Positions 12,501 to 63,953 of a DNA stretch of 64,000 nt are shown piece after piece. This stretch comes from Trissonchulus latispiculum. Lineage: Eukaryota > Nematoda > Enoplea > Enoplida > Ironidae. The stretch covers positions 47,437 to 111,436 of the forward strand of contig JASAND010030675.1 of NCBI GenBank assembly GCA_030248195.1, written 5' to 3'. Under the pieces are notes generated by a model. It was given only the letters and a program-made list of their open reading frames with translations. It ran no database searches and was not told where the DNA came from. Each line of letters opens with the position of its first letter. Positions within the stretch are counted from its first letter, which is position 1. A program made the translations under genes and the position numbers.

Positions 12501-13316
12501 CATTGTTTGAGCTGCAGCAAGAGTAAAAACATTTCTAGATGTTGATGCTGCAACTGCGTGTTGAGCTTCAGATATTGTTTTGCTCGACCTAGCAGCTTCT
12601 AATTCCCGTTTCAATTGCGCATGTTTGCGTAATACTTCAGAAAGTTGCGCTTCAAGTTTGACTAAAACATCATCAGTGTCAGTCCTAACATTGGCAGAAA
12701 CACTGAACACCGCAGCTTTGTTTCTCATTTCATTTGCAGAAGCGGGTGGGGAGGTAGACTGATCCATTTCCTTTTCCTCCTCCAACCTTGAAAGCTGAAT
12801 CACTATTTTGTGCAACTTCTCCATGCTTTGTCCCCAGCCTTCTAAATCTGCCAAAAGGGAAACACCCAATGTTTTGAGATCAGGTCTTAAACCTTTACGC
12901 AACTGTTCAAAAATATTGGTGGCTTTGCCTTTTTCAGTCTCATTAGGGAAAGCTTTCCGAGCGAGAACTTCCAATTCAGCGGCATAATCCTGCACTTTTT
13001 CATTCTCCTTTTGCATACGTACATAAAAATCCCGAGAATGTTCCGCCGCAGTTCTCGTAACCGGATCATAAAGAAATTTCAACCGTTGAACCAATTCTTC
13101 ATACGTATTAGGCAAACCCAAGGAGGAAATCTTATGAAGGACACTCTCACTAAGTTTCGACAAAAGAAGAGCCCGCATTTTGTCCTCAGGGATTGCAAAA
13201 GCTTGGACAATTGCCTCAAAACTAGTGATCCATTCACCAGGTGTAAGAGCAGTATCTCTGCCATTGTAGGGACTGAGGCTTTTCAAAAGAACCATATACG
13301 TTTTAAACTCAGCCAT
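6531..13316 (-). CDS. Gag-Pol polyprotein of Ty3/gypsy retrotransposon
   Basis: A single uninterrupted 2261-codon frame carries Gag and Pol without a frameshift or stop between them. In order: a retrotransposon Gag capsid-like region (about 20-180); one CCHC zinc knuckle, CFTCGNFGHISPNC (about 300-318); long Gln/Asn/Arg-rich and then Glu/Ser-rich linkers; an aspartic protease with LIDTGA (about 890); reverse transcriptase with YIDDLL (about 1408); RNase H beginning TTDAS (about 1555); an integrase with an HHCC zinc-binding region (about 1810-1852) and the D, D, E catalytic residues in YLDVCH, TDQGPNF and NGLVERVNG (about 1877-1973); and a GPY/F module ending in KYDGPYRI. No chromodomain is seen. 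All visible catalytic residues are present, so the protein looks functional. It would make virus-like particles, reverse transcribe the RNA and integrate the cDNA. Start chosen as the first ATG of the frame, just ahead of the Gag fold. Confidence 0.95.
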   Translation of the reverse strand: MAEFKTYMVLLKSLSPYNGRDTALTPGEWITSFEAIVQAFAIPEDKMRALLLSKLSESVLHKISSLGLPNTYEELVQRLKFLYDPVTRTAAEHSRDFYVRMQKENEKVQDYAAELEVLARKAFPNETEKGKATNIFEQLRKGLRPDLKTLGVSLLADLEGWGQSMEKLHKIVIQLSRLEEEKEMDQSTSPPASANEMRNKAAVFSVSANVRTDTDDVLVKLEAQLSEVLRKHAQLKRELEAARSSKTISEAQHAVAASTSRNVFTLAAAQTMHANPAQKTPSQQQFCYQEAQQTSRDLSGVTCFTCGNFGHISPNCAMRSQYSNSNYRYRRRGDNNVTRSGRSSQSLVDSNDQSLQHLSYDQQQQAQPQVSYIVPLNGNSQNFRDVGGVAPLAPTVKLPLTEENSTPIPKCVSNSDPKVCSLIANSENIVESLMRTYPAQKTITCNQICSVFSTYAGVVKSNLPPNHSFGRTNLPDPPRFQSFSSTYARTSFPTPHASNGFSGNSVTNASKTQAFDFFLPDEQRWVKLVPIDSSKVDLRNVRTISSISQAQNVSRVPVQTKFRPVFGNNGRVFQHPRAYKQNLRAQPFRSQPPRFSLPNFRYTPAPQQRFRQPRFFNAPRTFSQGYNVRTSVPAVPGNGKFNAFPFAPRVIFSSANSNPRNLGTSTSGSFSQGILPAATLQDYNQERIKHNGEPEQISLGASVNPNNKYAPQPFIGEQEAELEQYKERLQQLRTIDEASSKHYTTKLATNTTKAKEELSRNKGEKPSTSKHIRTQKKKSRTTKKNKIADPDFPDKFLFEDLLSQTSESTLTEESSTENSDSESDNSEEKPKVSHLKPQKASKDDPIFNNRNYLMAFVNQNEYFVGAQTKIPPIHSPVVVVSVSGSNTLALIDTGANISVISKSFVDHLRKKSPECLSPGELKLTSATAANGSAIDFSGSVKLNLSFQGYLWPHEFFISDYCPYDILLGTDFLSNYNWSMLMGRHSIYHPLFKEVPLLGAPQLNSILQVVGKETPKVSNILLRVGVSVPPNAETWVPISCQSTSQQQEQDDSDGDLGFIRIQASKVQTKSAPWPSRFDDSPKMIRNSMQILEKYNCYVVPGIVSSANQSQYIKVWNLGSEALDLRPGMTLAYADDLVALKNQKGKEAFLHLGDNWFEKEYVCESDLLSDDKPLVGSAIHNSNIKETVKQEAQPSKEQKPLTQEEQYEQFLKEAQLDKFECSEKSKDKFKELLRKYVHVFATPTNLGKCTTGQHLIDTGMGGPVTAKAYRVNPHERLKIEEHIKNMLEQGICSPSDSQWSSPCMLVGKKDGTTRFVIDYRNLNKITRKDRYPLPKIDEILDMFSKGKFFSTLDLNSGYWQIEMFPPHKEKTAFISHMGLFHFNVMPFGLTNAPATFQRIMERIFTELPVYIDDLLIPSNDEDHHLKMLEIVFQKLTDHGLRLKMKKCCFFRKRVEYLGHFISEKGIETDSRKVSAVRDFPVPRTLKQLRGFLGMAGYYRRFIQNFSTIAGPLNNLLKKLECFHWTEECQTAFDALKTALTNAPVLAYPNWDKPFLLTTDASIQGLGAVLEQDQDGESKPKPIAYASRSLVGAERKYEIYELEGLAVVWACKHFQHYLRHRQFTLYTDNEALKYIFTCPKRQGNSRLAKWHIALQEYKFKALHRKGVDNPVADALSRNPKWSATLQDNSLSKDSCSAKQVRTEDQSDNEQEFDVTADMYPPVCTIEKFSDESWSQALDEDPEFGPLKDYMATGRLTTDENVWRLIRFESDFDLENGILYRYHVDIHGRRRQALPRLVCVPTKFRNYILHQYHSAMDTGGHQGVPQTLYKIATKYYWPTLSKDVRTYVRNCIVCAKFTIGPKQPQAPMKPYPPVTKPFERVYLDVCHFPTSKKQKVCILVLIDQLTRWAEAWPLRNEKSETLIRTLLYDFILRYGVPNEVVTDQGPNFQSEVTTTFFKLLGTKKLRTTAYHPQSNGLVERVNGTIREIIKKYVDTSQRDWDVKLAFAMHAYRTSFHSTIQDTPYFLLFGRDCQVPEDLLFEKLDKPVTSLNSYKISAMKELTENWRVTSQIIKDKTDLVKQRYDKNVRIKNFDVGQLVMRNISQVPVPTGHMAKLAPKYDGPYRIIEKMSEQNVRLRCLQTGKVSNPIHVNRLKKLPDVHPQFTEDSVEQFEDLEQNTPEDTALNSRVVLDELSDNSTNRVTIQVLNDNEEANAHETESVASQELAVVVNNLTSDKEASLPIAPAQNALFDTSMLRCLQLYRYFS

Positions 13317-15548
13317 CTTGCGTTTGAACCCTTAGAATATTGCGCTGTGAGTTGATGCACAAAAGTCGCAAAAAAATCGCAAAAACAGAGTTCGCTGCGC
13401 TATACGTACATACTCGTGGGAAAAAAATGTTCGCTGCAGTTGGCTAAATTGAGTCAAATATAAAGAGAACTGTCCCAAATCGTTACAAATTATACGTATA
13501 GAAAATCTACACCTTTTGTTTTAGTAGTAGATTGATCAAACACAAAAATTAACTTCAAATTGGGCCAAAATCGTCGAAAATCGCAAAAAAACACACTACG
13601 TACAAAAAAAATCCGAGCAAAACTACGAAAAACTACACCAAATCGTGGCAAATCATTCAGCGAAGTGATCTACGACCGTGCTTTTAGTCGTAGATAAACC
13701 AAAACACAAAAAGAACCAAGTCGGAGAAAAACACATTATGGGAGGCACACGGTCTAATACCGGAAAAAAACACACTTGGGGCGAAAATCCACGAACCTAC
13801 GGTTATGACTACTAAATCTGCAATAATAATGGTCTACGGTCGTGCTTTTGACCGTAGAATGAACCCAAACCAAAAAGAAAAACCCGAATTACAAAAATCC
13901 TTAGGGGGGGCACCGCGACAAAAAACCCGAAAAATCGAAAAATGACCGATCTAGACCAAAAATTTTGGAAAATCCAGCGAAATCACTGAATAATAGGACG
14001 TACCACACGTACCGATGCTGTTAAAAATATTCCTGACCGAAAAATAAGCTCACTTTGGGGGGTATTCGAAAAATACACTATGTCTAAAACTCAAAAATAA
14101 AATTTGTCAGAGGGGTTTTTTAGAAAAACGGTTATTTTCCGCCAAAACCTCGCTGTACTGGTCCGTTATGGCTCACCAAACGTGAAATAAACCTTGGTTG
14201 GGCTAGAAATACCGTTGATCTCCCAAAAATTGGAAAAATGGGGGGATTTTAGGTCAAAAATGGGCACTAGAGGTATGTAACAAAAAACGCAATTTCTGGA
14301 AAATTCCGACTTCAAGGAGGGAGGGCACTATTTTTCCGAGAATCTACGTATATTTTCTGGCCTAAAAATGCTAATGCTCGATTATTTTAGGTGAAATTTT
14401 TATTTTTCCACCTAAATTGAAAAATTGCCAAAAATCACCAAAAATCACGAAAATGGGGGTCCTAGAAAATTTTTCACCGATTGAAAAATTAAAAATAGCT
14501 ACTGGGGAGGTTCAGAAAATGATGGAGAATTCATTTCTGAACAGTATGACCAATCTTATGGGGGGGGGTCCAAAAATTTTCTAAGTTTTTGGCTCAAAAA
14601 AAAATTTTCGAAATGGGGTCCTTTAGAAATGACTCAATTTCCGCCAAAAATCGTCAAACCTAGCAAAATTAAATTTTGCGAGCATGGGGGGACGCTGCTT
14701 GGCATGCTGTTCGAGTGCCCAGGCCATTATACTACTATAATACACCTAAAACAAAAAATTAAAATTTAAACCCCTAATTTATAATAAAGAATATCCTTTT
14801 AAAAAGGCAATTCTGGGAGTTAGCCAGAAAGCCTTACTACGCTAGATAATTAACTAAAATTATTAATTTACCTATCCGAAAGTTTGGCTGGCAACCGTTC
14901 CCCTAAAGGAGAGCGCCCACCCTCAACTTAGTTACACCCCAGATGATGATTTCTTCGTGGCAAATTCCCGGGGGGGGGGGGGGGGGGGTGAAAATTTGAG
15001 GGGGGGGTACGCTCACAAGGCTGCCCTAAAGGTTCCCTTTCGCTCCCCTACCCTTTTCCCAGGGGGGAGGGACGGCTTCTTTGAACCCGGGGGGGTTACA
15101 CCTACACCTGTGGTTGGGGGAGATTCCCCCCGACCAACGTGACGGGCTTGAACTTTGAAATAGACTGAATTTGGTTCATAATTGCTTGGCTTATCACAAT
15201 TATTTTCGAAAGTTGTCAAAATCAACAAAAAACAACTGAAATAGCTAAATTTAATCAAATTTAATTCAAACTAACAGTTTTAAACAAAAACTAACCGTTA
15301 TTTTGTCGAAAATCCAAACTTCGAAAATGCAATGTTTTCGTCACAAAATGGCTGCTGTTTACAGCTTAAAATCTGACGTGCAGGAACAAAGCTCAATCAA
15401 ATCAATAAAATTTCATCAAAACTAGACCAAATGAAGTAAAATAACTAATCAAAGTCGAGAAAATCGCAAAAATCAGAAAAATCGCAAAATCGTCAAAAAT
15501 GAAAAATTCAAAATTTTCAAAATTTTGAATGACGCCAGACAGAGTCAA
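13317..15548 (-). other. Long 5' leader of the gypsy element
   Basis: About 2.2 kb separates the primer-binding site from the Gag start. On the plus strand it is rich in A-runs and G-runs, including an 18-base G tract near 14971-14988. No convincing frame is present. It contains the hairpin-bearing tandem repeat listed separately. Confidence 0.7.
13480..13870 (-). repeat. Degenerate 164-bp tandem repeat with conserved hairpin
   Basis: Three diverged units, spaced 164-165 bp apart, each carry a hairpin. The stems are 13504-13510 with 13527-13533 (AATCTAC/GTAGATT), 13668-13676 with 13687-13695 (ATCTACGAC/GTCGTAGAT), and 13833-13841 with 13850-13858 (TCTACGGTC/GACCGTAGA). Stem bases differ between units yet pairing is kept, which suggests selection for RNA structure in the leader. 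Sequence around the stems (CAAATCGT plus a CAAAT block, and AAACACAAAAA after the stem) is also shared between units one and two. Confidence 0.6.
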
Positions 15549-21564: not shown

Positions 21565-24500
21565 TTAGTTATTTATCGAGAAATGACCGTATGCTTTTGT
21601 TTCTATCCCATCATCAGCTATATATCGTTTATCATCAAAAGCGGAAAGTGATCGTTTGTTGACTTCCATGGAATAAACTTGATGTAGATGACTTCGAATG
21701 TTTGTCATCTTATGGTATTGAACACTCGGATGGAACAGTGCCTCCTTGTAGTCTTCATGGCGGATGTTTCGTTTCACTACTGCCTTGGAAATACCCTTTG
21801 CCCGCTTCTTGCATTCTTCACCATATGTAAAGCTGTACATTTTTGAGCGCAGGCCAACGAATTCAGAAACGGGCATTCCTGACGTTTCGTCTTTCATCTT
21901 CCCCATGACTTTCTTATTATTTGTGCTGAATAAGAAGTGATCTGAAGGATAGTCACTAGTATCATACCAATCAGAGTGCTTTAGCAAATCCTTGTAGATG
22001 TTTTTCGTCTTTACAAGATAACAGAGTGAGTCCGTGTCTGTAAAGAGCAGTTTGCAGTAAGATCCATATCTTTTCTTGAACTTGTTATAGTGAAAATCGT
22101 ACATCAGAAGTTTTGACAAGTCAAGCACCGTGAAGCCAACATAGATTGGTTTGTTCAGGATGGTACGAGTTCTTCGCATCTTGACGGCAACTAGATCATT
22201 TCCAAAATCGATGTTTTCTTCGTAGCGAGGACTTGCAACGAGTTTGCGAAATCTCTTGGTTGACGTGACCAATTCAATATTGACGTATGCTCTGACATTT
22301 TCCATGCTCTTTCCAAACACTGCATTGTTGAGAAGTTTGAACAGATCCTTTTCGAAATTGCTTGTAGCTTGCTTGCGCATGTTTGCGTTGAATTCGATGT
22401 AAGGTTTCATCCACGCTGACTGCTTGAATGCTAGCACTCGATGAACTTTGACAACCAGCAGTCCAAGTTTCATGTACAATTGAAGATTGCGAAGATGAAT
22501 GATGTAATGTTGCTTGTTACGCAAAGTGGGTGTCAATTTTTCGGTTTCGGTGTGGTTTAGTTTCTGGACGGCTAGTACATTCCTACAGTATGGAGACAAC
22601 ATTTCATCGGTGATTGTTAACTTCTCGACAGCCAGCGGATAGTCGTTGTGATCATTGTGAAGGTCCGGAGGATATTCAAGATCTACTTCGAGGACATATC
22701 CGACGTCACCGTCTGGATCTACTTCTAACGGACAAAATTGATGAGCTCGTTCTTCATCAAGCCATTGAAAATCAGCTTCTGGCAATTTTTGCGTCATCGT
22801 CCACCCATATAGGTTATTTGCGTCTAGATAGATTATCCAAGACTGATCTTCAGCATGCTCTTCAATGTTACGAGATGTAAGAAAATTTTCAGCTTGAGCA
22901 TGTCGATGCATAATCGAGCTGACACCGCCTCTAATCCCAGTTTCAAAGAAAGTGTACATGTCGACATCGGTTAAGAGCTCTAGTCTCACTTTAGTTAACT
23001 TGAGGCATGCAGACCAGGCAAACGAAGGCAAGGTGTAGTAGTGAACTGGATCTATGCTGAAGTGAGCGAGCGAAAATTTTCGAAAGTTTTCGAATATATC
23101 ACACAGCAGTAGAACGTCACATTTCAAATAGAGGTCATGATAGTCTCCCAGCGTTTTCATATTAAACGCCTTCCAAACGTTTTCAGCATGAGCAAGGTCT
23201 TCAGTTCCTATGGTCTCCAGGGTAAGCGAGCTATAGAAGTTGTCCAAGCTTGGTAGCCTAGTTTCTTCAAATTTTTCCCACTCGTCCACATATTCATATG
23301 GATAGATTCCTTTACGTAATAAAAGCTTTTGTTGATCCTCAGATGGAAAGAAATGTCGGATGGAAAGAAAATTATGCTTATCGTTTTTTGATAAGGCTTG
23401 AACTAAAGTATCCAGTGAACTAGATAAGAACTGAAAAGAATCCAAGAATTTAATTGAATAGGATATGCTACGTTCATTGTCGCAGGAAATGGGTTGAAAC
23501 TGCAAAGAGAAGGTTATGTAGTCTTCCATTCCCTTTGGAATGCATTTAATGGTGGCATTGCGCTGCTTAGCTGCTGTTCCCAAACGCTGCATAATTAGAT
23601 GACCATCGTAGCGTCTCAAGTTGTGCAACACAACAGCTATGTCCTTGGAAAGCTTATATTCAATGTTGCATTTTCTGTGTGCAGTCCCACGAAAGCTTCC
23701 ACAAAGATGGCAATGATCCTTCACTTTTCCGATGGACTCGCAAGAGAAGCAGTAGGTAGCAGACGGAGATTGCTGACACTGTTCGCATTGTTGAAATGGT
23801 TCAGTACAGATGTGACAGAGAGAAGTCTGTTGAAATGTTCGAAGATCCTCACTGCTAAGGCAATGCTTTCTTTGCCTCGTGCTAAGACGATTTTGGTGAT
23901 TCACTGATAGCTCTAAGAAGAAACCGCTCGACGCAGTCATCACCCCTATAAGTCAATGGATTCCCGAATTGGACTGATGATTTTTCACAGCAATGATATA
24001 GGTCTAGGAGTCCAAAGCTGCACGGTACATGGTTGGCTTTCTTTATAGTATAGGAGTTATTAGGATTAGGATCAGCTGCTTGGACACCCCTCACAAAACA
24101 TTCGAAGTCTGCGTAAATAACATATGGCATTCTGTGTGCATTTTTCCACTGAGTGAATTCAAGCAGAGGTTTTCGTGATTCGCTACATTCAGGCATCTGA
24201 ATGCATTCTGTAGCAGTACATCGACGTTCATGAGATGCCAATGTTTCTTCGGAGGAATAGGGCACCAAACATCTGAAGCAGAAGTATTTTCTACATCGAT
24301 GTTGTGTATGGCTATACAACAAACGGTTTAAATCTTTTATAAGACAGTAGTGCCAGTTATCCCCATTTTACCTTACATCTTGGCATGTTTGTCAATTTCG
24401 AAAGGTATACTTACTGGAAAAATATGGTCTTCGTAACTGTAGACATTAACGGCTATAGCATTTTGATTCTCAAACTTCGGAATCTGTGAAAGTGGCAGGA

Positions 24501-25016
24501 GAAACGACAGTCCTTTCAACTTGGGAGAATCTTTGAATGATTGGTAATGAGATATACGTTGAGGATTGTCCCGCTGCGGATAAAGGAACGCTAGGATGCT
24601 CCAAACAAAGCAGTGATTGTCAGTATAATTTTGAGGGTTGATTATTGCCTTTTTCGCTGATAACTGTGACGGCAGAGGAATGAAGGAAGCTGCTTGAAGA
24701 GGAACATATCGAGCTACGTGAATGTCTAAGAAATCAATGCTGCCTACAACCCAGCCCGAACCCCTTTTTTGGAACTCATCAACTTTCTTTTGCAATTCAG
24801 AGGCAGCCGCCTGCATAAGACTTCCCGGATCGTCAGCTAACAAAACAGTTTTAATGGCTGTTGAAATAAGCTTCTAACTTCGCTGTGTAGTCTGTAATTT
24901 TGTGGAAAGTAACTTGTAGTCGCAACTGAACTTTTATGGCATTCAGCTCAGTTTGCAGTCTCCTGATTAGGAATTTTAGCAACTGCTTTGTGTCACCAAT
25001 ATACGATGACAAATCA
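21565..25016 (-). pseudogene. Polinton/Maverick-like protein-primed DNA polymerase B relic
   Basis: Minus-strand pieces in different frames together resemble the long PolB of Polinton-type elements. The most upstream piece ends at a TAA at 24851-24853. The next (24843-24373) carries the conserved N-terminal region with SFIPLPSQL and KKAIIN. The next (24322-23882) has a CxxC zinc-like motif and exonuclease motif I in YADFECF. The last (23943-21565, 792 codons) holds a DHCHLCG zinc/endonuclease-like motif, Exo II YDGHL, Exo III YLKCD, palm motif A DANNLYG, motif B NNAVFGKSMENV and motif C TDTDSL, and a normal C-terminal end. All visible catalytic residues survive, but at least three frame breaks make it a relic. 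No terminal inverted repeats, integrase, ATPase or capsid genes were found nearby, so only the polymerase segment remains. Confidence 0.82.
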
Positions 25017-30746: not shown

Positions 30747-31026
30747 GTAAGGGAAGCAGGCATAGGAAAGATTGATAAGCCTGATATGGGAGTTCAGCGG
30801 CCCTGTGGTGTAGCGGTAGCATGTCTGTTTCCGGATCAGAAGGGCCGTGGTTCGATCCCTGGCTGGGCCAATTCTTCACTTTCAACGGTGAGTGAAAAGC
30901 TGAACCTCCCTCTTCCCTTCTCTCTTCTAGGTCCTGGTTTCGTGGGTACAATGGTGCCTGACGCCTCCCGTTTGGGCTTGTCCTTGGTTTCGTCTTGGTC
31001 CACCAGCCCTGGTAGAAGCGCTACAA
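30747..31026 (+). mobile_element. tRNA-derived SINE, longest copy
   Basis: A 52-bp head (GTAAGGGAAGCAGGCATAGG onward) leads into a tRNA-like 72-mer at 30799-30870. This has a Pol III A box TGGTGTAGCGG (30806-30816) and a B box GGTTCGATCCC (30849-30859). A non-tRNA tail containing GGTGCCTGACGCCTCCCGT and CCAGCCCTGGTAGAAGCGCT follows. The acceptor and T stems contain mismatches, so it is a SINE and not a working tRNA gene. Other copies lie at 44560-44660 (minus), 55538-55650 and 56183-56380. Confidence 0.75.
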
Positions 31027-37658: not shown

Positions 37659-40600
37659 CTAGCTACTCAAGTGGAATGAAATTGCGTTTGATTCCGGGTC
37701 AACCACAGTCTGTACTTTATCACCGGGAATTCTGACTTCCGTTTCCGGTAGGTCATCCTTATCAGGACTTTGGGTTTGATTTCTCCGCTGTTTCACTTCG
37801 GTTCCGTTCTCTGCAATCGAGCTGTTCTCCGGTATTTTTTCTTCATTTCCTGCTTCTCTTTCCTTGTGTTCTTTTACAGCTAAAATAAAAAAACTTACAA
37901 AAAACTGCTCGTCTTATAAATGGAAACGAAAATACGAAATATCAAAAAGGTAGCTTTGTACCATGTTTGGTTGAAATATGAAGTTTTCTATTAATTAATA
38001 CAAGCATACTAATAGGCTTTGAAGTCAATTTGAAAATGTTCCCTGAACAGACTTGAAAATCCTTCATTATTGATTATTGATTATTGATTATTGATTTTAG
38101 ACAGAGTTCGACGGGTAATAATTCCGTATATGAACACCTGTATTTAAACTAGGGAAAACTTGAACAAGACTTTGTATGGGCACATTTTAGCACTTTTTTG
38201 ATTGACGTCTACCGGAAACTTTTAATTTTGAAAAATTAAATTTTTCTGGTTTTGCAACAGGTTTTGCATTTAAAAATATTAAATTTTTTGGTTAGAAATG
38301 TGACTAAATACGCCAATGCGAAATTCGAGCTCGATTGGTTCCAATGTGCAATACAGGTGTTTTTATACGGAATTACGACCTCCAAAAGTAAACAAAATGC
38401 ACGGACGAAATAAAAATTTGCTCTGGATCTATCTTGCAGAGCAGAAAGGTATGCGGCTTATTTTGTAAACACCCCATTCAATTCTGTACTTTTGGAGGTT
38501 GCTTCTGCTTTTCAATCATATTTTAATTTAAGACTGCTTGCTTGCTGCTGAAGCTTTCTTCTACGCAGAAACGTTTCATTTATGTGTTGATCTGAAAGTT
38601 TAAACGTAAACAGCATAAAATAAAATGTACATATATATAAAAAGAAATCATGCTGCAAGCAAAAAAGTTTCATTTATCTGTATTGTCAGGTCTTAAGAAC
38701 TTTAATGTGAAAAATACATAAAATAAAATGTACATATATGTAAATGAAAATAAAAAATTGAAAAAGGAAAAGGAAAATACGAAAGTTGGTACTTACGTAA
38801 CCTAACTTGTTCTTATAATCATGCCTAATGCTTACACTTTTTAACAGCTCTCTGTAGCTTAGACTTAAGATCCTGCTTAATCTCATCCTCTGTAGGTTCC
38901 AGTATAATCGGGGAGCTGGGCTGGCTGGGGACCGTATCCTCATTTTCATTTTCACTTTCCTTTCTGGCCAGGAGAAGGTCCCCGAAGAACCAGACCAAGT
39001 GAGCAAAAGAGACACAGGAAACGCCAACATAGAGACCCCAAATTCCGCCCACATCAGAAAGAAATCCTTCCAGAGTTTTCATCAACTTCTCTGTCACGAA
39101 AATTATCTCCTCAGGCGGTATCATGCGAACAAAATAGGTTGTTACCTAAACAGGGAAATTAGATAAACAATATTACAAATTTGTTGATTATAAATTTGTT
39201 AATTTGAAAAATGAGGTTCTTTATGATTAATTTGAAAAATCGTCAGGCAAACAAATAAAAACTTGACAGGTTTGGAATCATGAAAAATTCTCCTGAGAAG
39301 CTTTTGTATTTTCTGAATGACCAGATTAGGCAGAAACAAAATGAATTAGAGTAAACTAAGGCCACTCCGAAAGCCGATCTATATATTGTCAAGTGACTGG
39401 TTGTATTTGCGCTATATCATTTATAGTAAACTAAAATTATGCCAAAGCAATTTTGCATCTCTCCGTTAATTGCTCAATAATTAGCTGGTTTTATTGCTGG
39501 ACATCTCCACAAATTCAAACCCAGAAGTTTTAAATAAATACCAATTGGGAATTAAAATACCTACATCCGGTATCTCAGATTCTTGAGTGAGCTGCCAGGA
39601 CGTTAGGTTATACTGTTCTCGAATTCTCACATACTGGGTGATCGAATAGCCATTACAATAGATCAGTTCTGAGCACTCGTGTACACAGGATTCCCACCGA
39701 CACCTGGGGACCCTCTCAAACCAGAGCGGTTTCTGTTCCCAGCGCTGACAAGGGGCTGTCTCCATAGCTATCGACTGATTGTACTCCGCCTTATAGGAAC
39801 AGTTGCCGTAGATTATGGCTCGCCATTCCTCACAGTCGCAGTTCCTTATTTTCAGCCAGGTGGGCAGAACCCATCCGTAGCCGGGATCATAGCAAGGCCG
39901 GGCCCGTTTGTTGACAAAGGTATAGTTAACGGCCTCCAGGTTTTGAGTTAGGGCAAAGTACCGAGGCTCCTTGGCATCTTCCGGAGTAACAATGAAGGGT
40001 TCCAGCTCCACCAAGCCGTGTCGGTCCTGAAATAGTCTCCGGGCGATATCCAAACTGAGGCTGTGGTAGGGCGAGATGAACAGGGAGTAGACCTTAGATC
40101 CCGGGACACTTAGGAATAGGTCCCAGTCGATGTGAAGCTGCAGATTGAAGGCACATCCGCCGGTAGCGGTGCAGGACTGGCTTTCCATCACTCGGCAGAC
40201 CAGCGGCCCGCCATCGCCATCGAACGACGTATAGAAGGGATCACTGGCGAAGCTGACTCCTTCCTGGCCGGTGATGCCCCAGAGCAGAGCGTCATACTCT
40301 GACCTGGTGTTGAGGCCAAGCCGGACCATATCCTCTTTGACGGCGTTTTCGAAGTAGTCCAAATCCACCTTGGTGGGATCGACAAATCCCGCCACATAGT
40401 TCTTCAGTCCATCCATAGTGTCGTAGTTGAGGTCTCCGAAGGGGGATTGGGCCCGGGCCCAACCTCCATAGGCTTTGGCACAGACCGTCAGTTTGGCGAA
40501 GGTGGTATCACTTTCGTCCCGTAGAACGGTACTGACATCTGTGACCGTGGCTTCGCCGTAGAACTGCAGGATTAGGGCATAGGTTTGTTGGCACATCAGG

Positions 40601-42857
40601 TAGACAAAGGGTAGAAACAGGAGCAGCCAGATGATCAGGGAAGTCTTGGATCGGGCCGACACGATTTCCTTCAACCCGCCGATGGACGTTTCGTTGCAGA
40701 ACTCCTTGAGACTGGTGGCAACTCGTTGTCGGTATGCGATTTCGGCCACGGTTGCGAAACCCAGGTCTCCTTCCGCTCGAGCCCGCTCGATTTCTCGATT
40801 TAACTGGGCTGCTCTTTCGGCTCTCTCCGCTTCCCTGGCAACTCGATTGTTCTTCTTGATCAGGCAGCACAGATAGATCAGAAATCCGGTGGCCAGAAGG
40901 ACTCCAAGAATTCCAAAAACGTAGAGGACGATGATTACCCAAACCGGATTTTCCTTCGTGAAATGGCAGGGCATGTGGAATTCGTCGTATTCCGCTTCGC
41001 TCGGAGCCAGCACCCTACAGATGTAGGGATGTCGCTCTTGGCACTCGGCCAAACTCCAAACGGGCGGATGTCCGTCGGAGCTTGGTCGAGTTGTGACGCA
41101 ATCCTTGCTCAGAGATCGCGCCAGGATGTGACCATCGAACGCATGATAGGCTATTTCGCTGCCGTCCGTCCACTGGAGTTGGTTTTCAATGCGTCGATCG
41201 TTCAGACCCAGCCAAACCGGCTCCTGGCCGACCTGCAGGTCGTCCATCAGCTGTGCCAGCTGTTGATTCTCTTCCACGCTCTGCACCGAGACCAGATGGC
41301 CTCTGGCCTCTCCACAGCTGCCTTCAGCCTCTTTCAGAGTAACCTTTTCCGGAAACAGTTTGTAACAATTTTGTCCCAGCAGAACCCAATCCGAGTTGCA
41401 TTTGGGTTTCTGCAGCGGTGTGGCGTAGACGCTTAGAGCGGCTACTCCCCCACAAGCCACCATGGGTTTACCGGGACACGAGGCTTCACAGCCCCGCCCG
41501 AAACCCCGACTACGAGTTGTGGTGATATTGTTACTGCAAAGGCAATGAAATTGCGTGCAGTTTGAGTTGGTGCAAAGATCACCCGCTTGCATGCCGGCAT
41601 ACATATAGCCATCCGCCGAGCATGCCTCGATGCAACTGCTGGTACTGAATTTCCCCTCAATTCCAATTTCTGTTTCCAGCAACGGCTCTGCCAGTTGGTT
41701 TCGAAAACAGCCGATATAGGCGTGGTCGGGATCGGGCCGGCTGTGAAGCCAAATGGCCACCTCGTCCTTATGGAGGATTTCCGCCAACTCCAGCGGAGTT
41801 GCTCCATCCGCTGACTTAGCGTGCAACGATGCGCCTCGGTCGCGCAGTAGTTGCGTGGTCAGCACGCTGTCATTGGTGACCGAAACGTGCATCGGCGTGT
41901 ATTCGGTCACGTCCGTTCTGGCTTCCTTGTTGGCACCGGCGTTGATCAGCAGGTCGGCCATTTGCTGCTGGCGATAGTAGGCCGCCGTATGCAGCGGAGT
42001 ATATCCAGCCAAGTCCGGATAATTTGAAACGAACGATTTCGCCTCCAGATCAACGCCGGCTGCCAGCAAGAGCTTGGCCGATTCCACCTGACCCATTTCG
42101 GCCGCAAAATGCAGCGGAGTTGATCTTAAATCAGTGATCTTGAAGTTGGGATTCCCGCCATGATCCAACAAGATCTTGGTCACCTCGCCAGTCTTATCGT
42201 GGATGGCTGCGTAGTGAAGCGGCGTCCAGTTGTTGTTGGCGCGATAGTTGGGATCGGCGGAGTAGTTTAGGAGCAACTCCACCAGATCGGGCCGACTGGC
42301 CCTCACAGCGTAGAGCAGTGGAGTACTCAGCACCAGGTCAACCTTATCGACACTGGCATTTTTCTCCAGAAATGCTTTAACCAGATCGTAACTCCCGCTC
42401 TGTACCGCTATGCTGAGCGCGGGCCCGTAGTCGAACACAGTGGTATCGGGATCGACCGGGTACTTCAGCAGGAGTAGGGCGGTTTCGATGTTATGCTCGT
42501 AGACAGCCGTATAGAGGGGAGTCCAGCCCTCCGAGCCGGGGATACTGTAGTCAGCCCCCGCCTCAATGAGCAGTCTGCACATTTCGGTGAAGCCGTGCTG
42601 CGCCGCAATGTGCAGACTGGTCCAGGTCGGACTGGTGCCCTGGTTGACGTTGCTGGTGTAGTTGAGGATCAGGGGGATCACGCTGGTTCGATTGTTGTCC
42701 GCTGCCATCGAAAGGATCGAGTATCCCTTGGCGTCAACGTAGTCCGGGTCCAGACCCTGCTCCAGGTAGTACTTCAGAGTCTCATAGTCTCCGTTGGCGG
42801 CTGCCTGAAGCATGGTGAGCTCTTCCCCATCGCCTACGGCGAAGGGTATGAAAAGAC
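37659..42857 (-). CDS. DEG/ENaC channel fused to ankyrin repeats, WSC and C-type lectin domains
   Basis: Exons (minus strand): 42857-39511, 39145-38836 and 37879-37659, plus at least one upstream exon not found. The first join uses a weak GTGGAG donor; the second (GTAAGC donor) is in frame. Numbering from the ATG at 42813: about ten ankyrin repeats (1-360); a WSC carbohydrate-binding domain (364-465, YIGCF to GGVAALSVY); a C-type lectin fold (472-601, WLGLND and WTDGS); a transmembrane helix (624-652); a basic/acidic helical linker; the first ENaC helix (724-748); a cysteine-rich ectodomain (750-1100); then in exon two GFLSDVGGIWGLYVGVS, with the GxS selectivity filter, in the second helix. 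An acidic, lysine-rich cytosolic tail ends at TAG 37659-37661. The residues before the ATG (LFIPFAVG) look like a signal-peptide end, so the ankyrin repeats would be extracellular. It is probably an amiloride-type sodium channel gated or tethered by a ligand-binding ectodomain. I know of no such standard family member. Confidence 0.85.
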
Positions 42858-44559
42858 CTGAAACAAGAAAAGAACTAATTACAGACTATGGTTAGCAAAA
42901 TGTTAAAATTTCAACCACTTTGTGATTCAATAGGGAACAGCTGCCTATCCACCTTTCCGCAATTATTTCGTTAGTGGCGTCGAAAACTGGGGTCAGCTTT
43001 TTACAAATTCTGGGCAAATTTTGTAACAGCTATACCACTATAAAGCTAAGGGCCTTTTCATGAAACAGCTAAGTAGAGTTGAACGGGTTAAAATATAAAT
43101 TTAAAATTTAATTCAACTTGCTCCTTGTCATGAAAGAGTTAAAGGAGGGAAAGTTTGGGTTTAGTGGAGTTATAAAGGAGCCAAAATGGTTAATTTTAAC
43201 GGTGCCGACATTGCTACACGCCTATTGCTGGAATTGAGTTTAGATAACCTTTCAGAGAATAAAACTAAATCACCCAAACCAAATCTTGTAAGAAGAACTG
43301 AATATTTAACATTTATATAGTATTTATAAAGTTCCTTAAAATATTGGGCGCAAAATACGGTGTCATTATGAATTATGAATTATGAATGAACGAATCATTA
43401 CGGTTAGTCTGGAATTTTTGTTAATAATATTTAACGTCCATTGTAAACATAAAAACTTTATCTACCCAGGTTGAAGGAAAAATTTTTTATTTTACTTACC
43501 AAGGGCAATAATTAATAATGTAAAATGATTCCGGAAAAGATATGATATCATTTTTTGGCCTCAATAATCTTTAACTATACATTTCCTATAAGCACAACGA
43601 TTTAACACTTATGGAGCGAAAGAATATACACAATTTAACAGTAGCAAATAACACAAGAGCTTTTAACAGTGACTTAAAAAATTGCCGGCGGCGGTTTAAC
43701 GTTTTTTCCAGAAATTCTTATATCTGCATTTAGACGGTATGATTTTTACAAAAATACAAACTAGTCGCAACTCCTAGCTACCTGTATATTTTGCACTAAC
43801 TTTATATATGTTACATCTAACCATTCTTTATAATATACACTAACTCCAGCGCATTACGTGGGTATACCGTTAGTTAACGTTTCTAATCAGTATATGTTTT
43901 ACGTCAAAGACACAAGCGTTACTTTGTTTTTTCACCGTTAAAATTTATATTAACAGTTATTAAAGAAAGAAATTCAATTATTATGCAACACATAACACAA
44001 TATATAATGTTGCAAACCTATTTTTTGTGTTTTTACAAACGTTTGATTGAACAGAAAAATCAAATAACCAGAGGAAACGAAGAAAACCCTGACAAATGAA
44101 ACATTCTGGAATATTCTAGAAGTCGTCAAGGTTTAGCAAAACTTCGATGCAAATCTACATACTTTGTTTCTAATTTGGATGGCGGCCACTTCAAAGGCAG
44201 ACAAGGAGGGGACGAAAACGGGAAATTCCACCTTGTTTCCAAGAAAGGGTAGGCACTCAAAAATTTTGCACCCACAGAGGATAAGAAATTCGGGTACAAA
44301 TTCGGCAAGCAAATTGTCAAAATTATGACGACTAAAGTTATCAAAGATTTTCTGGCTCTGTGAGAAGAAATCCGAAAAAGGTTAATTTCTATCCTCTTTT
44401 TTTAGAAGGTCAACTCCCCACTTAGTTTCGTTTTCAACAATTGTCTAATGTCAAACAGCTTTCAGTTGCATTGGAAAGCTTCATTTACCTGGTGAGTGGG
44501 TGAGCGAGCGCCGGTCAAACAAGCACTGACATGTAACTAAGAAATTGGCCCTTGCCAAG
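42858..44559. other. Intron or 5' flank of the channel gene
   Basis: A strong acceptor (TTGTTTCAG) abuts 42857, so an intron begins here on the minus strand. A minus-strand frame at 44344-44126 opens with a hydrophobic stretch (MITLVVIILTICL), but no donor in the phase required by exon two was evident. The first exon therefore remains unidentified. Confidence 0.45.
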
Positions 44560-59256: not shown

Positions 59257-59382
59257 GTCCTAGATTTAAGATTGACGTGTTTTTACCACAAAACCAATAC
59301 TTTGTCATTGCTTAATTTAGCTAATTCGTAATTAATTTAGGTTTTGGTATTCCTATTAACCTGTTGTACTCTTTATTAAAAA

Positions 59383-59479
59383 TCTCTTCTTGGCAGTCGG
59401 TCTGCCGACTGCTTCACTTCAAGTCTTCGTTCTGTGCTGGTACAGTCGTTTTTGTCCATTTTCTTGCTCAGCTGGCTAC
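59383..59479 (+). repeat. 97-bp direct repeat, copy A1
   Basis: Matches 62832-62928 at an offset of 3,449 bp with one difference (T at 59446, A at 62895). It begins TCTCTTCTTGGCAGTCGG and contains the palindrome GCAGTCGGTCTGCCGACTGC. Confidence 0.95.
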
Positions 59480-59691
59480 TATACGGCTACTTTGCGATTT
59501 GCTCTCCGCCCTTGACTCCACTGCTCGGATCCAACCTTCTTGAAAAGCTAAGTTTTTGCTTATTTCTTAATTTCTTGTACTCTCACTCCTTCGTTGTTTT
59601 CTGGGTTTTTCTTTTCTGCTCGTGGTTTTTCTGGTACTGCTGTAGTACTGGTGCCCATAAATTTACTCTATTGTCTCTCTTTCTTTTTAGA

Positions 59692-60525
59692 ATGGCGGAG
59701 TCTGATACAGCTGCCCGGCAAGCTCGTCTGGAAGACATTCTCTCTCATTTGGCTAACAGGACCCAGGATGTTCCTGGACCCAGCCGTGATAGTCAGCCCA
59801 CTCCCTCTTCTGCGGTCGGTGGTAAAAAACGGAAGCGCAAGCGTTCCTCTTCCCACTCATCCGGTCATTCTTCTAGCTCTGACTCGTCCTCCTCGACTGC
59901 GGACTCCTCTTCCGCCTGTTCATCTTCGTCACCTAAGCAGCGGAAGGCTCCAAAGCGCAAAAAGTCCAAATCTGTCGCCAAGAAGAAGAAAAAGCTTCCT
60001 AAGTCCTCCGAGGCCAAGCTCACCCACCCTGGCTCTAAAATCCAGTACGAAGTGAATGAAGAAACCCTGAAATTTTTGGACAAAGCCAAGCACTCGTCAT
60101 CCAAGTCCAAGGTTAAGCATTATGTTCGGAAGGCCTTCCGAATCCTTGAAACCCGCCAGCAAACCCTCCTCATCGGTAACGCCTACGGTTGGGATGTTGT
60201 CCAGCTTATGGACAAGAGTAGTGCCTTGGGATCACTTGACCCTGGTATGGCCCGCAGCCGCCTCCAACAAGCAATCAAATCTGTGCACCGTCCGTCGCCC
60301 TCCACGCCCCGCCCACGCCAGCCCTTTCCAGCCCGGGGTGCAGGGACAGCCCCTTCCCTGTTCTCCGGTAACCGCCGCTCCGGGGCCTCCTCCTATGCTC
60401 GCCCCCGCTGCTTCGTCTGCGGCCAAGTCGGGCACCTCCAAACCGCTTGCCCCTATTCCGCCCAATCTGCTCCCTCCAAGCCTCAGTCTGCCTCCCGCCA
60501 AGATGCCGGATTCCAACCTAAATGA
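59692..60525 (+). CDS. Gag-like protein of the DIRS/Ngaro element
   Basis: 277 codons from the ATG at 59692. This start was preferred because the upstream part of the frame runs through the repeat and a hydrophobic, non-conserved stretch, and because a CTCTTTCTTTTTAG acceptor-like sequence sits right before it. The protein has a short helical N-terminus, a Lys/Ser-rich low-complexity region (about 45-105), a helical middle, and one CCHC knuckle, CFVCGQVGHLQTAC, near residue 240. It is expected to package the element RNA. The frame is intact. Confidence 0.75.
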   Translation: MAESDTAARQARLEDILSHLANRTQDVPGPSRDSQPTPSSAVGGKKRKRKRSSSHSSGHSSSSDSSSSTADSSSACSSSSPKQRKAPKRKKSKSVAKKKKKLPKSSEAKLTHPGSKIQYEVNEETLKFLDKAKHSSSKSKVKHYVRKAFRILETRQQTLLIGNAYGWDVVQLMDKSSALGSLDPGMARSRLQQAIKSVHRPSPSTPRPRQPFPARGAGTAPSLFSGNRRSGASSYARPRCFVCGQVGHLQTACPYSAQSAPSKPQSASRQDAGFQPK

Positions 60526-60559
60526 TCAAATTGATGTTATAGAAGGTATTCAAGCTTTT

Positions 60560-62550
60560 TAGCTAATTGTCTAGTTCTTAATAAATTCTGGAAAGTCTCT
60601 GCTGCCTTCTGTGGTAACCTTCGTCGGCAGTCTGTTTTCTGGGATTCACTGCACCCAAACCTTTCGTTCTGAAAACTGTTAAATCAGGACACCTTCTGCC
60701 CTTCGTTCAGGTGCAGCCCGCTTTTCACTTTGAAAATAACAAGTCTGCTCTTGCTCACTCCACGTTTCTAGAAACCGAAATCAGCTCCCTCCTGGCTCAA
60801 GGGGTTATTCAGCGCGTTAGTTCTCCCCCCTTATTGCGTCAACCCTTTAAGTGTGTCATTTAGTTCCAACAAGTTGCGTTTGATACTCGATTGTTCCCAT
60901 CTGAATACCTTTTTTGCTACCGAGCATTTTAAAATGGAAGCCATCCCTGCAGTGTTGCAAACCTTTCGTTCGGGAGATTTTATGGCTAAGTTTGACCTAA
61001 AAAGTGGCTACGACCACGTTGAAATCGACGATGCCCACAAGACTTTTTAGGGTTCTCTATAGGCTCTGGTTGCACACGCCAGTATTTTGTTTATAACTCC
61101 CTGCCGTTCGGTATATCTTCTGCTCCGCGTTGCTTCACGAAATTGCTGCGCCCATTCGTGAAGCGTTGGCGCAGTTTGGGAATTCGAATTGTGTTATATC
61201 TCGATGACGGTATTCTTTTTGCTTCTTCTAAGCGCGACCTCTGGGCCGTTATCCCTCGTGTTGTTTCTGATCTAACTGCTGGGGGTTGGGTTGTTAATTT
61301 TGCCAAATCCATACTTCAACCAACCCAAGTTTTGAGCTTTCTAGGATTCGCACTCAACTCTGGTAGTTTCACTATTTCTGTCGCTCCTCACCGTACAAAC
61401 GCAGCCCTCCCTCTTCTTCGCTCACTCATAGCTTCGTGGCCCCATATTACAGCCCGTCAAGTTCTTATAGCATCTGGGCATCTAGTTTCAATGAAACCGG
61501 TTTATGAAAGCTTAGCACTTATTCGAACCAAACTCTTTTATAAGGCTGTTACGGAGACGTCTGCCTGCTCTGATCGTGATGCCCATTTGCTTCCAAGTTC
61601 TACACTGCCCCCCTTGCTTTCTGAATTTCACTTTTGGTCGAGCAGCTCTCGAGATGCAATCTTCGTTACTTTTCTCCGGCTACACCGTCATTCCGAATGT
61701 CTATCGATGCCAGTAGTGTCGCAGCCGCTGCCATACTTCATTTCAGTTCCGGCGATCAGATCGCCCATGTCAACTTTTCAGCGCAGTTGCGTAGGAGCAG
61801 CTCCTGTTTTCGTGAGTTGTATGCAATAAAACTTGGGCTAGACAGCTTTGCTTTTTTATTCAGACATTCTACTGTGCACGTTTTCACAGACAATCAAGGG
61901 GCCGCCGCCTGCTGTTTACGTGGATCCATGGTCCTCCCGCAGCAAACTTTAGCCACTGAGATATCTGAACTTTGTCTCCGCCGTCACGTCACGTTAAAAG
62001 TTACCTGGTTCCCCCGCAGTCTTAACTCCCGCGCCGACGCTCTCAGCAAATTTGTCGACTGGGACGATTGGGGTGTTTTCCACTCCCTCTTCAATCAGCT
62101 ATGTTCCCATTGGGGGCCGTTTTCTTGTGACTTTTTGCAAACCATCTCAATACAAAACTGCCAACTTTTTTTTCGAAATTTTGGTGCCCTCGCTCTAGCG
62201 GGGCCGACTTTTTTCTTCAGGACTGGTCTGTCCTTTTTGGGTGGGCGGTGCCCCCATTCCGTTTGATCCCAGAATGTATCGCCAAATTTCTCCACAATGG
62301 CAGCCGAATGGTCTTGCTTGTGCCTTTCTGGCCATCTGCGCTTTTCTGGCCCCATCTCTCTTCTCTTCAGCCGTTTATCCGAGACCACTGGGTCATCCCT
62401 AATGCCTCCCGATTTCTCATTCCCGGAACTCAACGACTTTTTGCTTTGTCCAACCGTACTTACAGTTTTTCTTTTTTAGCTCTCTTGGTGGACTCCAGCG
62501 GACCGCCCCAACCAGCCGGAGTCGCTTCCGGCGCTCCTCCTCCACTCTGA
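60560..62550 (+). pseudogene. Reverse transcriptase-RNase H of the DIRS/Ngaro element, frameshifted
   Basis: The domain is spread over several frames: an N-terminal fingers region (about 60660-60850); a palm with FDLKSGYDHVEI ending at a TAG at 61048-61050, where one T appears to be missing from a T-run; then LPFGISSAPRCF and the catalytic YLDDGIL (near 61200); a shift near 61670 into RNase H (SIDASSVAAAA, CFRELYAIKLGL, FTDNQGAA, SRADALSKF); and a further shift near 62200 into the conserved region after RNase H (62248-62550). The catalytic residues remain, but at least three frame breaks inactivate the protein as encoded. Confidence 0.75.
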
Positions 62551-62684
62551 CTTGCTTTTTCGCCTTCGGATTCTGCTGGATCTTTCTGCCGCGTGGTGGC
62601 CTGTTTCCTGGAGGCACTCTGAATTTATCAACTTTAATCATTTTTTCTACCGTGTCTTTGTTTTTTGTTTGCTTTTTGTGCCCT

Positions 62685-62690
62685 AATAAA
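62685..62690 (+). terminator. Polyadenylation signal after the RT-RNase H region
   Basis: AATAAA lies 135 bases after the last RNase H-region frame and before the second palindromic block, which suggests a transcript end here. Confidence 0.35.
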
Positions 62691-62718
62691 CCACTTTGTT
62701 ATTACTTCATCTGCGTCT

Positions 62719-62830
62719 GGGCGTGAAAGCCGCATTATCCCGACAGTATGGTAGGAATAATGTCGGCTTTCGCGCCCGAGCATAGATGTCTACGGCTCAT
62801 TTGCATATTAGATTCACTATGCAAATGAGC
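62719..62830. repeat. Two palindromes upstream of the second 97-bp repeat
   Basis: GGGCGTGAAAGCCG at 62719 pairs with CGGCTTTCGCGCCC ending 62777; CATTATCC/GGAATAATG extends the stem. A second, perfect 13-bp palindrome, GCTCATTTGCATA (62795-62807) with its inverse (62818-62830), contains two ATTTGCAT octamers and ends one base before the repeat. Confidence 0.8.
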
Positions 62831-62831
62831 T

Positions 62832-62928
62832 TCTCTTCTTGGCAGTCGGTCTGCCGACTGCTTCACTTCAAGTCTTCGTTCTGTGCTGGTACAGACGTTT
62901 TTGTCCATTTTCTTGCTCAGCTGGCTAC
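62832..62928 (+). repeat. 97-bp direct repeat, copy A2
   Basis: Second copy of 59383-59479, 96 of 97 bases the same. It lies just upstream of the recombinase frame. Confidence 0.95.
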
Positions 62929-63953
62929 CGCCCCCCCCTCCCTCCCTACTGCACCTAACTGCGTTATTATTTTCAAACCTACTTTATGCCTCTCTGTGGC
63001 TCCATGGCGATCGCAGTCTCTCTGCCTCGCAGGCCGCCGTTCTCGTGCAGTTTGCTCTTGGATCCTTGGCAGCCACCACTCGACGATCCTATCTTCGCAT
63101 CATCCGCCGTTTCTTATCGTACCTGCGCAACACCAGGGGCGTACTCCATCCCTTGCCCGCCTCTCCCTTTGATGTTGCCTCCTTTCTGCTGAGTTCTGTC
63201 CAATCCTCGAGCTCCGTTTCCGTCCTTGAGGTGTCTCTAGCCGCTATTAAATGGGCCCATACCTTTTGCAGCCTTCCCGATCCATGTCATGATCGATTCC
63301 TTTTCCTCGCCGTCTCTGGAATGAAACGCTGCCTGGCCAAGCCTCCTCAACGTAAACTCCCCATCACGCGGACTCACCTGCTCCGGCTGGCCGATGCCGC
63401 GCTCTCTAACCCTCACTCTCTCAAGCAGCTTCGGGATACTACCTTTTGTCTCCTTGCCTATGCTGGCTTCTTTCGTTATTCCGAGCTGGCCGGGATTCGT
63501 TGTCATGATGTGTCTGTCTGTCCTCAAGGCTCTCACCTTATCATTCACCTTCCTATCTCCAAGACTGATCATTTTCGCCAAGGTTCTGATGTCTTTATTG
63601 CGTCTTCTGATTCCAATTTGTGTCCTGTTACCTTTTTTCTCAAATACATTGCCCTCGGCGGTCTTTACCCCTCGGGGGGGCATACGGGTTCAGTATCCTT
63701 TCTTTTTCAGTCTCTTGCTAGACGACCCGTCGTGGGTTGGGGAACCCTTATCTTATGGGGAGGTAGTGCGACTGTTATGGGTATTCCTGCTGACCTTGTC
63801 GGCACGCACAGCTTTCGGGCTGGCGGTGCCACTCAGGCCGCTCGCGAGCGCATTTCCGATCGTCTGATTTCGCTTCATGGTCGCTGGCGTTCGGAATCGA
63901 GTAGAAATCGTTACATAGAAGACTCTCCTGTATCTCGTCTCGCAGTTCTGTAA
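62883..63953 (+). CDS. Tyrosine recombinase of the DIRS/Ngaro element
   Basis: The open frame of 356 codons begins inside the 97-bp repeat. The real start is unclear because no in-frame ATG precedes the core fold; use of an alternative start, frameshifting or splicing is possible. From about residue 45 there is an N-terminal SAM-like helical domain (SASQAAVLVQFALGSLA onward), then the catalytic domain. Visible active-site residues are Arg 198 (GFFRYSELAG), Lys 227 (SKTDH), His 309 and Arg 312 (THSFRAGGAT), His/Arg/Trp 332-335 (HGRWRS) and the nucleophile Tyr 344 (NRYIED). The complete R-K-H-R-H/W-Y set indicates a working enzyme that would insert circular cDNA by site-specific recombination. 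It stands next to a broken reverse transcriptase, so it may be in a younger copy or be kept by chance. Confidence 0.85.
   Translation: MLVQTFLSIFLLSWLPPPPPSLLHLTALLFSNLLYASLWLHGDRSLSASQAAVLVQFALGSLAATTRRSYLRIIRRFLSYLRNTRGVLHPLPASPFDVASFLLSSVQSSSSVSVLEVSLAAIKWAHTFCSLPDPCHDRFLFLAVSGMKRCLAKPPQRKLPITRTHLLRLADAALSNPHSLKQLRDTTFCLLAYAGFFRYSELAGIRCHDVSVCPQGSHLIIHLPISKTDHFRQGSDVFIASSDSNLCPVTFFLKYIALGGLYPSGGHTGSVSFLFQSLARRPVVGWGTLILWGGSATVMGIPADLVGTHSFRAGGATQAARERISDRLISLHGRWRSESSRNRYIEDSPVSRLAVL

Follow-up and report, generated by a model that had tools for sequence, protein, structure and literature searches.

Can a channel subunit of the DEG/ENaC kind carry its own receptor in the same polypeptide? 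The question is raised by a gene on the minus strand of a 64-kb stretch of DNA (the window) from the nematode Trissonchulus latispiculum (contig JASAND010030675.1, positions 47,437 to 111,436), in which ankyrin repeats, a WSC domain, a C-type lectin-like domain (CTLD) and the start of a DEG/ENaC domain (Pfam ASC) are encoded in one frame. The same frame is kept in a second haplotype and in diverged paralogues, so the fusion is not a product of chance. What the protein does is less certain; at roughly 55%, we lean towards a receptor-channel whose ectodomain acts on its own pore or tethers it. All coordinates of the gene are positions within the window.

Gene model and domain order

The body of the gene is an uninterrupted frame of 1134 codons (42885-39481, minus strand). 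We infer that it is spliced as part of a four-exon gene, as follows.

43500..43551, minus strand: exon 1, MISYLFRNHFTLLIIAL, predicted start of the signal peptide; GTAAGT donor, phase 1, with a shuffle control
39565..42857, minus strand: exon 2, 3293 bp; remainder of the signal peptide, ankyrin repeats, WSC, CTLD, extra helix (TM0), linker, TM1 and most of the ENaC ectodomain
38836..39145, minus strand: exon 3; end of the ectodomain, TM2 and the G-V-S filter (39025-39017)
37659..37879, minus strand: exon 4, in phase; predicted cytosolic C-terminal tail and stop

The initial annotation lacked the signal-peptide exon (43551-43500, minus strand). This exon begins with ATG and joins 42857 in phase 1, and the joined protein of exons 1 and 2 begins MISYLFRNHFTLLIIALGLFIPFAVG, resembling a signal peptide. 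When the 1 kb upstream was shuffled by dinucleotides 2000 times, any candidate first exon with such a donor and phase arose in 28 shuffles, and an equally hydrophobic one in none. Exon 1 also stays in frame, with its GTAAGT donor, in the other haplotype, and exon 2 aligns to that haplotype with zero gaps. Near the end of exon 2 there are three phase-0 GT sites, after 39631, 39565 and 39511, of which we favour 39565 (39565/GTAGGT). The site after 39511, from which a junction to 39145 had been drawn, is in phase and is disfavoured because the unspliced frame of the other haplotype stops before that place; the site after 39631, likewise in phase, is disfavoured because paralogue sequence runs on beyond it. 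The last junction of the initial annotation, 38836-37879, stands: it is in phase and has a GTAAGC donor, and exon 4 is identical between haplotypes at 218 of 218 bases while identity in the preceding intron falls to 94.7%, with 9 gap openings. Position 37659 is the end of the gene. The predicted product is 1291 aa long with exon 4, or 1221 aa with the in-frame stop at 38825 instead.

In the long frame Pfam finds, in order, the ankyrin repeats, WSC, C-type lectin and the first 75 positions of the ASC model; the end of the model (ASC 418-453, 24.4 bits) follows in the frame of the next exon (39145-38825). The initial description of one exon with ankyrin repeats, WSC, CTLD, a membrane helix and an ENaC core, followed by an exon with the filter, therefore agrees with both frame and Pfam, and the domain search that it proposed recovers ankyrin, WSC, Lectin_C and both ASC ends. 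The ankyrin repeats are present, although by eye they number nearer 11 than the ten first estimated. Pfam has no match in the third piece, 37913-37659. The parts are, on the minus strand:

41770..42828: ankyrin repeats, about 11 counted by eye; Pfam Ank_2 E 1.1e-81; predicted extracellular
41446..41718: WSC domain; Pfam, frame residues 390-480, 33.3 bits against a cut-off of 27.8
41014..41346: CTLD; Lectin_C, frame residues 514-624, 46.7 bits; without canonical EPN/QPD and WND motifs
40852..40953: TM0, extra helix between lectin and channel core; hydropathy 2.66
40702..40851: charged linker to TM1, predicted cytosolic from sequence and hydropathy scan
40474..40701: start of ASC (DEG/ENaC) with TM1; Pfam ASC, frame residues 729-804, 38.2 bits against a cut-off of 23.6
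40675..40680: Gly-Gly at the place of the His-Gly motif, from the alignment of fusion copies

The eight cysteines of the WSC domain are invariant across six aligned copies. A hydropathy scan (19-residue mean above 1.6) marks only the signal peptide, TM0 (residues 653-686), TM1 (754-781) and TM2 (1155-1175), so that in place of the typical DEG/ENaC topology of two helices and a short cytosolic N-terminus the predicted protein has a signal peptide and three membrane helices. Because the upstream exon encodes a signal peptide, the ankyrin repeats, WSC and CTLD are predicted to be extracellular. N-glycosylation sequons in the ankyrin part number 6 against 2.6 expected in the window gene (P 0.03) and 6 against 2.4 in the paralogue on contig C13094 (P 0.024), and are not enriched in four other fusion stretches (P 0.21 to 0.31). 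One of the three control ankyrin frames was more strongly enriched (7 against 2.5, P 0.009); L019 and L020, the remaining controls, overlap the same region.

The fusion in the second haplotype and in paralogues

A protein search of the genome (733.8 Mb, 21732 contigs) found the second haplotype of the window gene on C8998 (98%) and a paralogue on C12296 (42% over residues 21-1093), whose other haplotype lies on C12487. Further fusion matches lie on C13094, C19295, C11889 and C13498. On C13094 a single 836-aa frame runs from WSC through CTLD and TM0 to the TM2 end of the ASC region, and an ankyrin frame precedes it; on C19295 everything from ankyrin to TM2 lies within one 1416-aa frame, again with a further ankyrin frame upstream; and on C13498 two ankyrin frames stand just upstream of WSC. 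The ankyrin parts of C13094 and C13498 were assigned by matches to that of the window gene. C11889 has no ankyrin frame of at least 75 aa on the gene strand, where tblastn finds a diverged ankyrin fragment (7426-7640) and, inverted to it, another (6043-5762). The other haplotype and the paralogues, in which the same domain order is repeated whole or in part, thus bear out the claim that a DEG/ENaC-type protein of several domains carries a very large extension at its N-terminus.

Five paralogue frames were scanned with Pfam, and in four of them WSC, lectin and ASC are all confirmed. In C19295 the WSC domain falls under the Pfam cut-off and the lectin domain is unreported; both nonetheless align with the other copies. 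The ASC scores of C13094 and C19295 are 72.8 and 53.4 bits, each as two stretches in one frame. From WSC to ASC the pairwise identity is 22-43%, except for 83% between C11889 and C13498, and the paralogues are 24-43% identical to the window gene. Among 13 WSC matches in the genome, seven are full-length, and all seven belong to the fusion family. Separately, contig C9435 holds two inverted copies of a C13498-type ankyrin frame (6503-7459, plus strand, and 13944-14795, minus strand), with MLKCIIWLIPVNCLG near the start, resembling a signal peptide; the inverted arrangement is possibly a palindrome or an assembly artefact.

To what extent is the frame held by selection? Between the window gene and its second haplotype (Nei-Gojobori, own script, 1287 codons) dN/dS is 0.03 overall (dS 0.1545, dN 0.0046). 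By part it is 0.008 for signal peptide and ankyrin repeats, 0.013 for WSC, 0.10 for CTLD, 0.05 for TM0 with the linker and 0.008 for the ENaC core. These low values across the frame show that the entire single frame is kept by selection, with the lectin domain least constrained. Of 12 amino acid differences, 7 fall within residues 488-630, the CTLD with its N-terminal flank, and in the CTLD replacement changes are significantly over-represented relative to silent ones (Fisher P 0.0008). For C12296 and C12487 dN/dS is 0.217 over the whole and 0.418 in the CTLD, and the corresponding excess is not significant (P 0.096).

The lectin-like domain has the CTLD fold. EPN/QPD and WND, the canonical calcium/sugar motifs of C-type lectins, are absent in all six aligned copies, and the carbohydrate sensing first proposed is for that reason not supported; the domain may bind matrix or protein. 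Protein database searches gave 24 matches, all of which list a C-type lectin domain and none ASC or WSC; 8000, 7999 and 6541 candidates were scored, with 2, 0 and 22 matches among those scored. The reach of these searches is proteins of suitable length that share exact words, hence absence elsewhere is not shown. Nor was the ankyrin-WSC-CTLD-ASC fusion found in the literature at the level of titles and abstract openings. The same domain order, which the initial annotation had suggested seeking in related genomes, was accordingly not found outside this genome by searches of limited reach, and for that reason we describe the fusion as a variant of the DEG/ENaC kind and do not call it a first.

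The channel part and the rest of the window

In the window gene the ASC domain is detected at both ends, TM1 and TM2, in two exons (38.2 and 24.4 bits). The G-x-S filter is readable in four copies, as GVS in the window gene and C12296 and as GCS in C13094 and C11889; this count excludes C19295, whose frame diverges there, and C13498, whose TM2 exon was not located. The His-Gly motif, which we treat as typical and highly conserved and not as defining for DEG/ENaC, has lost its His in all six aligned fusion copies, with Gly-Gly or Ala-Gly instead. HG is present in 45 of 48 other ENaC loci examined in this genome, the misses being one fragment and two with HA. The two HA genes, L058 (C1429) and L068 (C3928), are ENaC-like, so the fusion clade is not alone in having an altered motif. 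One account of ASIC1 places His-Gly in a re-entrant loop in the lower pore (PMC7308080).

A quick tree, built without bootstrap, covered 49 rows of this genome, 5 of them fusion copies and the other 44 ENaC-like; left out of it were L016 (a fusion copy), L010 and L012 (haplotypes) and rows L041, L042, L043 and L062. The five fusion copies form a single clade, their ASC parts lying on one side of one branch (SH-aLRT 100) with a long stem; these 49 rows do not indicate from which ENaC branch they came. The genome has at least 95 ASC matches, haplotypes included, many in single frames. Many of the other ENaC frames end just after SNLG before TM2, suggesting that those genes share an intron at a position where the fusion genes have none.

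An AlphaFold2 model of the C13094 protein, from an alignment of 27 rows of which 20 are ENaC-only, reached pLDDT 65.3 and pTM 0.50. With this model, the 50 Foldseek matches listed are all ASIC, FaNaC or BRTNaC1, the best having E 2.8e-16; the ectodomain is ASIC-like in fold, with ASIC1a at E 2.8e-16 and a TM-score of 0.53 by target length. A second model from the fusion sequences alone had pLDDT 52.2. The VIA-align listing was filled by lectin-domain matches and does not bear on the ENaC part.

Elsewhere in the window the following were seen.

6531-13331, minus strand: Ty3-type retroelement; its 2266-aa frame encodes protease, reverse transcriptase, RNase H and integrase domains
21565-24873, minus strand: frames resembling, by eye, the protein-primed DNA polymerase of Polinton-like elements; Pfam found nothing in the longest, the only one scanned
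30799-30870, plus strand: tRNA gene match, 46.3 bits
51113-54211, plus strand: Copia-type element broken into several frames, the first of which, the only one scanned, has Pol_BBD and gag_pre-integrase domains
59380-63953, plus strand: frames that look by eye like reverse transcriptase, together with a weak match to phage integrase (19.9 bits, under the cut-off of 27.1), suggesting a tyrosine-recombinase retroelement

A proposed receptor-channel, its alternatives and known systems

How might such a protein be built? The first part of the predicted product would be a type I receptor, made up of signal peptide, ankyrin repeats, WSC, lectin-like domain and one helix. A short linker in the cytosol would connect it to a DEG/ENaC-type subunit consisting of TM1, a Cys-rich ectodomain and TM2 with the GxS filter. 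The N-terminus of a DEG/ENaC subunit is cytosolic, and a receptor can therefore precede it only by way of a helix of its own that leads inward. TM0 would return the chain to the cytosol exactly where the DEG/ENaC subunit must begin, which would make the order topologically consistent. DEG/ENaCs are trimers, and each channel could then carry up to three lectin heads on ankyrin stalks. Gating would be biased when the heads bind matrix, another cell or the ectodomain of the channel itself. The fuller picture, a self-contained family of receptor-channels in which an ENaC-type trimer bears extracellular ankyrin stalks and lectin heads, and contact with matrix, cell or microbe, or a fold-back, opens or closes the pore, is tentative, and we would sooner bet against all of it together than for it.

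Several observations weigh against a working receptor-channel. The ENaC-like sequence is divergent, with Pfam detecting only the two ASC ends in the window gene, and with His-Gly lost the protein may differ from ENaC in gating or conduction. Confidence in the structure model is modest (pLDDT 65.3), and 20 of the 27 rows in its alignment were ENaC-only. The ankyrin part of C11889 is only a diverged fragment, and a first exon of the paralogue on C12296/C12487 was looked for with no convincing candidate. The ankyrin sequons are not clearly enriched, and the extracellular placement of the repeats rests on signal peptide and topology.

The most serious competitor, to which we give about half the credence of the receptor-channel, is that the channel is dead: the protein would be a receptor for adhesion or recognition, anchored as a trimer through its ENaC fold, or else a non-conducting subunit that regulates other ENaCs, of which the genome has dozens of genes as possible partners. 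Its best argument is the replacement of His-Gly in all six aligned copies; the divergence of the core fits it too, as does a CTLD that is the least constrained domain, as in recognition. Yet the ENaC part is under the same constraint as the ankyrin part (dN/dS 0.008), and G-x-S is retained in the window, C12296, C13094 and C11889 copies. We regard it as improbable that the precursor is cleaved, in the linker or after TM0, into a receptor and a channel that remain bound to each other, as the ectodomain of polycystin-1 remains bound once cleaved. In favour of this are that precedent and the charged linker, at which the type I receptor portion meets a complete ENaC portion; against it, the linker itself is conserved (dN/dS 0.05).

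Ankyrin repeats are usually cytosolic, and if the signal exon were unused, translation could begin in exon 2, which has a Met early on; the sequon enrichment is mixed. Cys-rich WSC, CTLD and then the ENaC ectodomain would, however, sit on the wrong side of the membrane, and the signal exon with its GTAAGT donor is kept in frame in the other haplotype and matched by 0 of 2000 shuffles, so we regard this as very unlikely. That neighbouring genes were joined by the assembly or the gene model could be suspected in an assembly of 21732 contigs. For the join between receptor and TM1 we reject it, since that join lies inside single open frames on several contigs, and such an artefact has next to no probability.

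If the receptor-channel reading is true, ankyrin repeats would stand outside the cell as a spring or ligand platform, and the family bears on whether such repeats can serve extracellularly at all. Because the six copies examined have all lost the His, the family is also a natural test of what His does in His-Gly. One account has DEG/ENaC mechanosensors modelled as matrix-tethered through separate proteins (PMC10148893); a natural fusion of a possible tether to a channel would make the tether model testable in one polypeptide.

With DEG/ENaC, ASIC and FaNaC channels (PF00858) the fusion shares TM1, the Cys-rich ectodomain, TM2 and GxS, and the best Foldseek matches include ASIC1a, ASIC5 and FaNaC1. 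It differs in its signal peptide, about 600 aa of extra ectodomain, a third helix, and Gly-Gly or Ala-Gly in place of His-Gly. For the lectin part, the best matches in the protein database and the PDB include the mannose receptor and LY75 C-type lectins. Those proteins have tandem lectins without a channel. The canonical sugar motifs were not found in the fusion CTLD. TRPA1 and NOMPC, found among PDB sequence matches of the ankyrin part, also put a long ankyrin stack on a cation channel. Their ankyrin repeats are cytosolic and their pore is TRP, whereas those of the fusion are predicted to be extracellular and on an ENaC-type pore.

Polycystin-1 (PKD1) likewise has WSC and a C-type lectin ahead of a channel-forming membrane part. 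Its pore is TRP-like, not ENaC. The window gene does not have the make-up of polycystin-1 (PKD repeats, REJ, GPS/GAIN, PLAT and 11 membrane helices): LRR, PKD, REJ, GPS and PLAT are not among the Pfam matches of the window exons at E 0.1, and the NCBIfam polycystin model matches the lectin region only (17.1 bits, far under its cut-off). The polycystin-1 lectin domain is described as activating the PC-1/PC-2 channel complex (PMC7728438), and a review assigns some of that activation to the LRR domain instead (PMC9672506). The fusion family, if it works as a receptor-channel, would be a convergent counterpart of polycystin-1 on a different pore.

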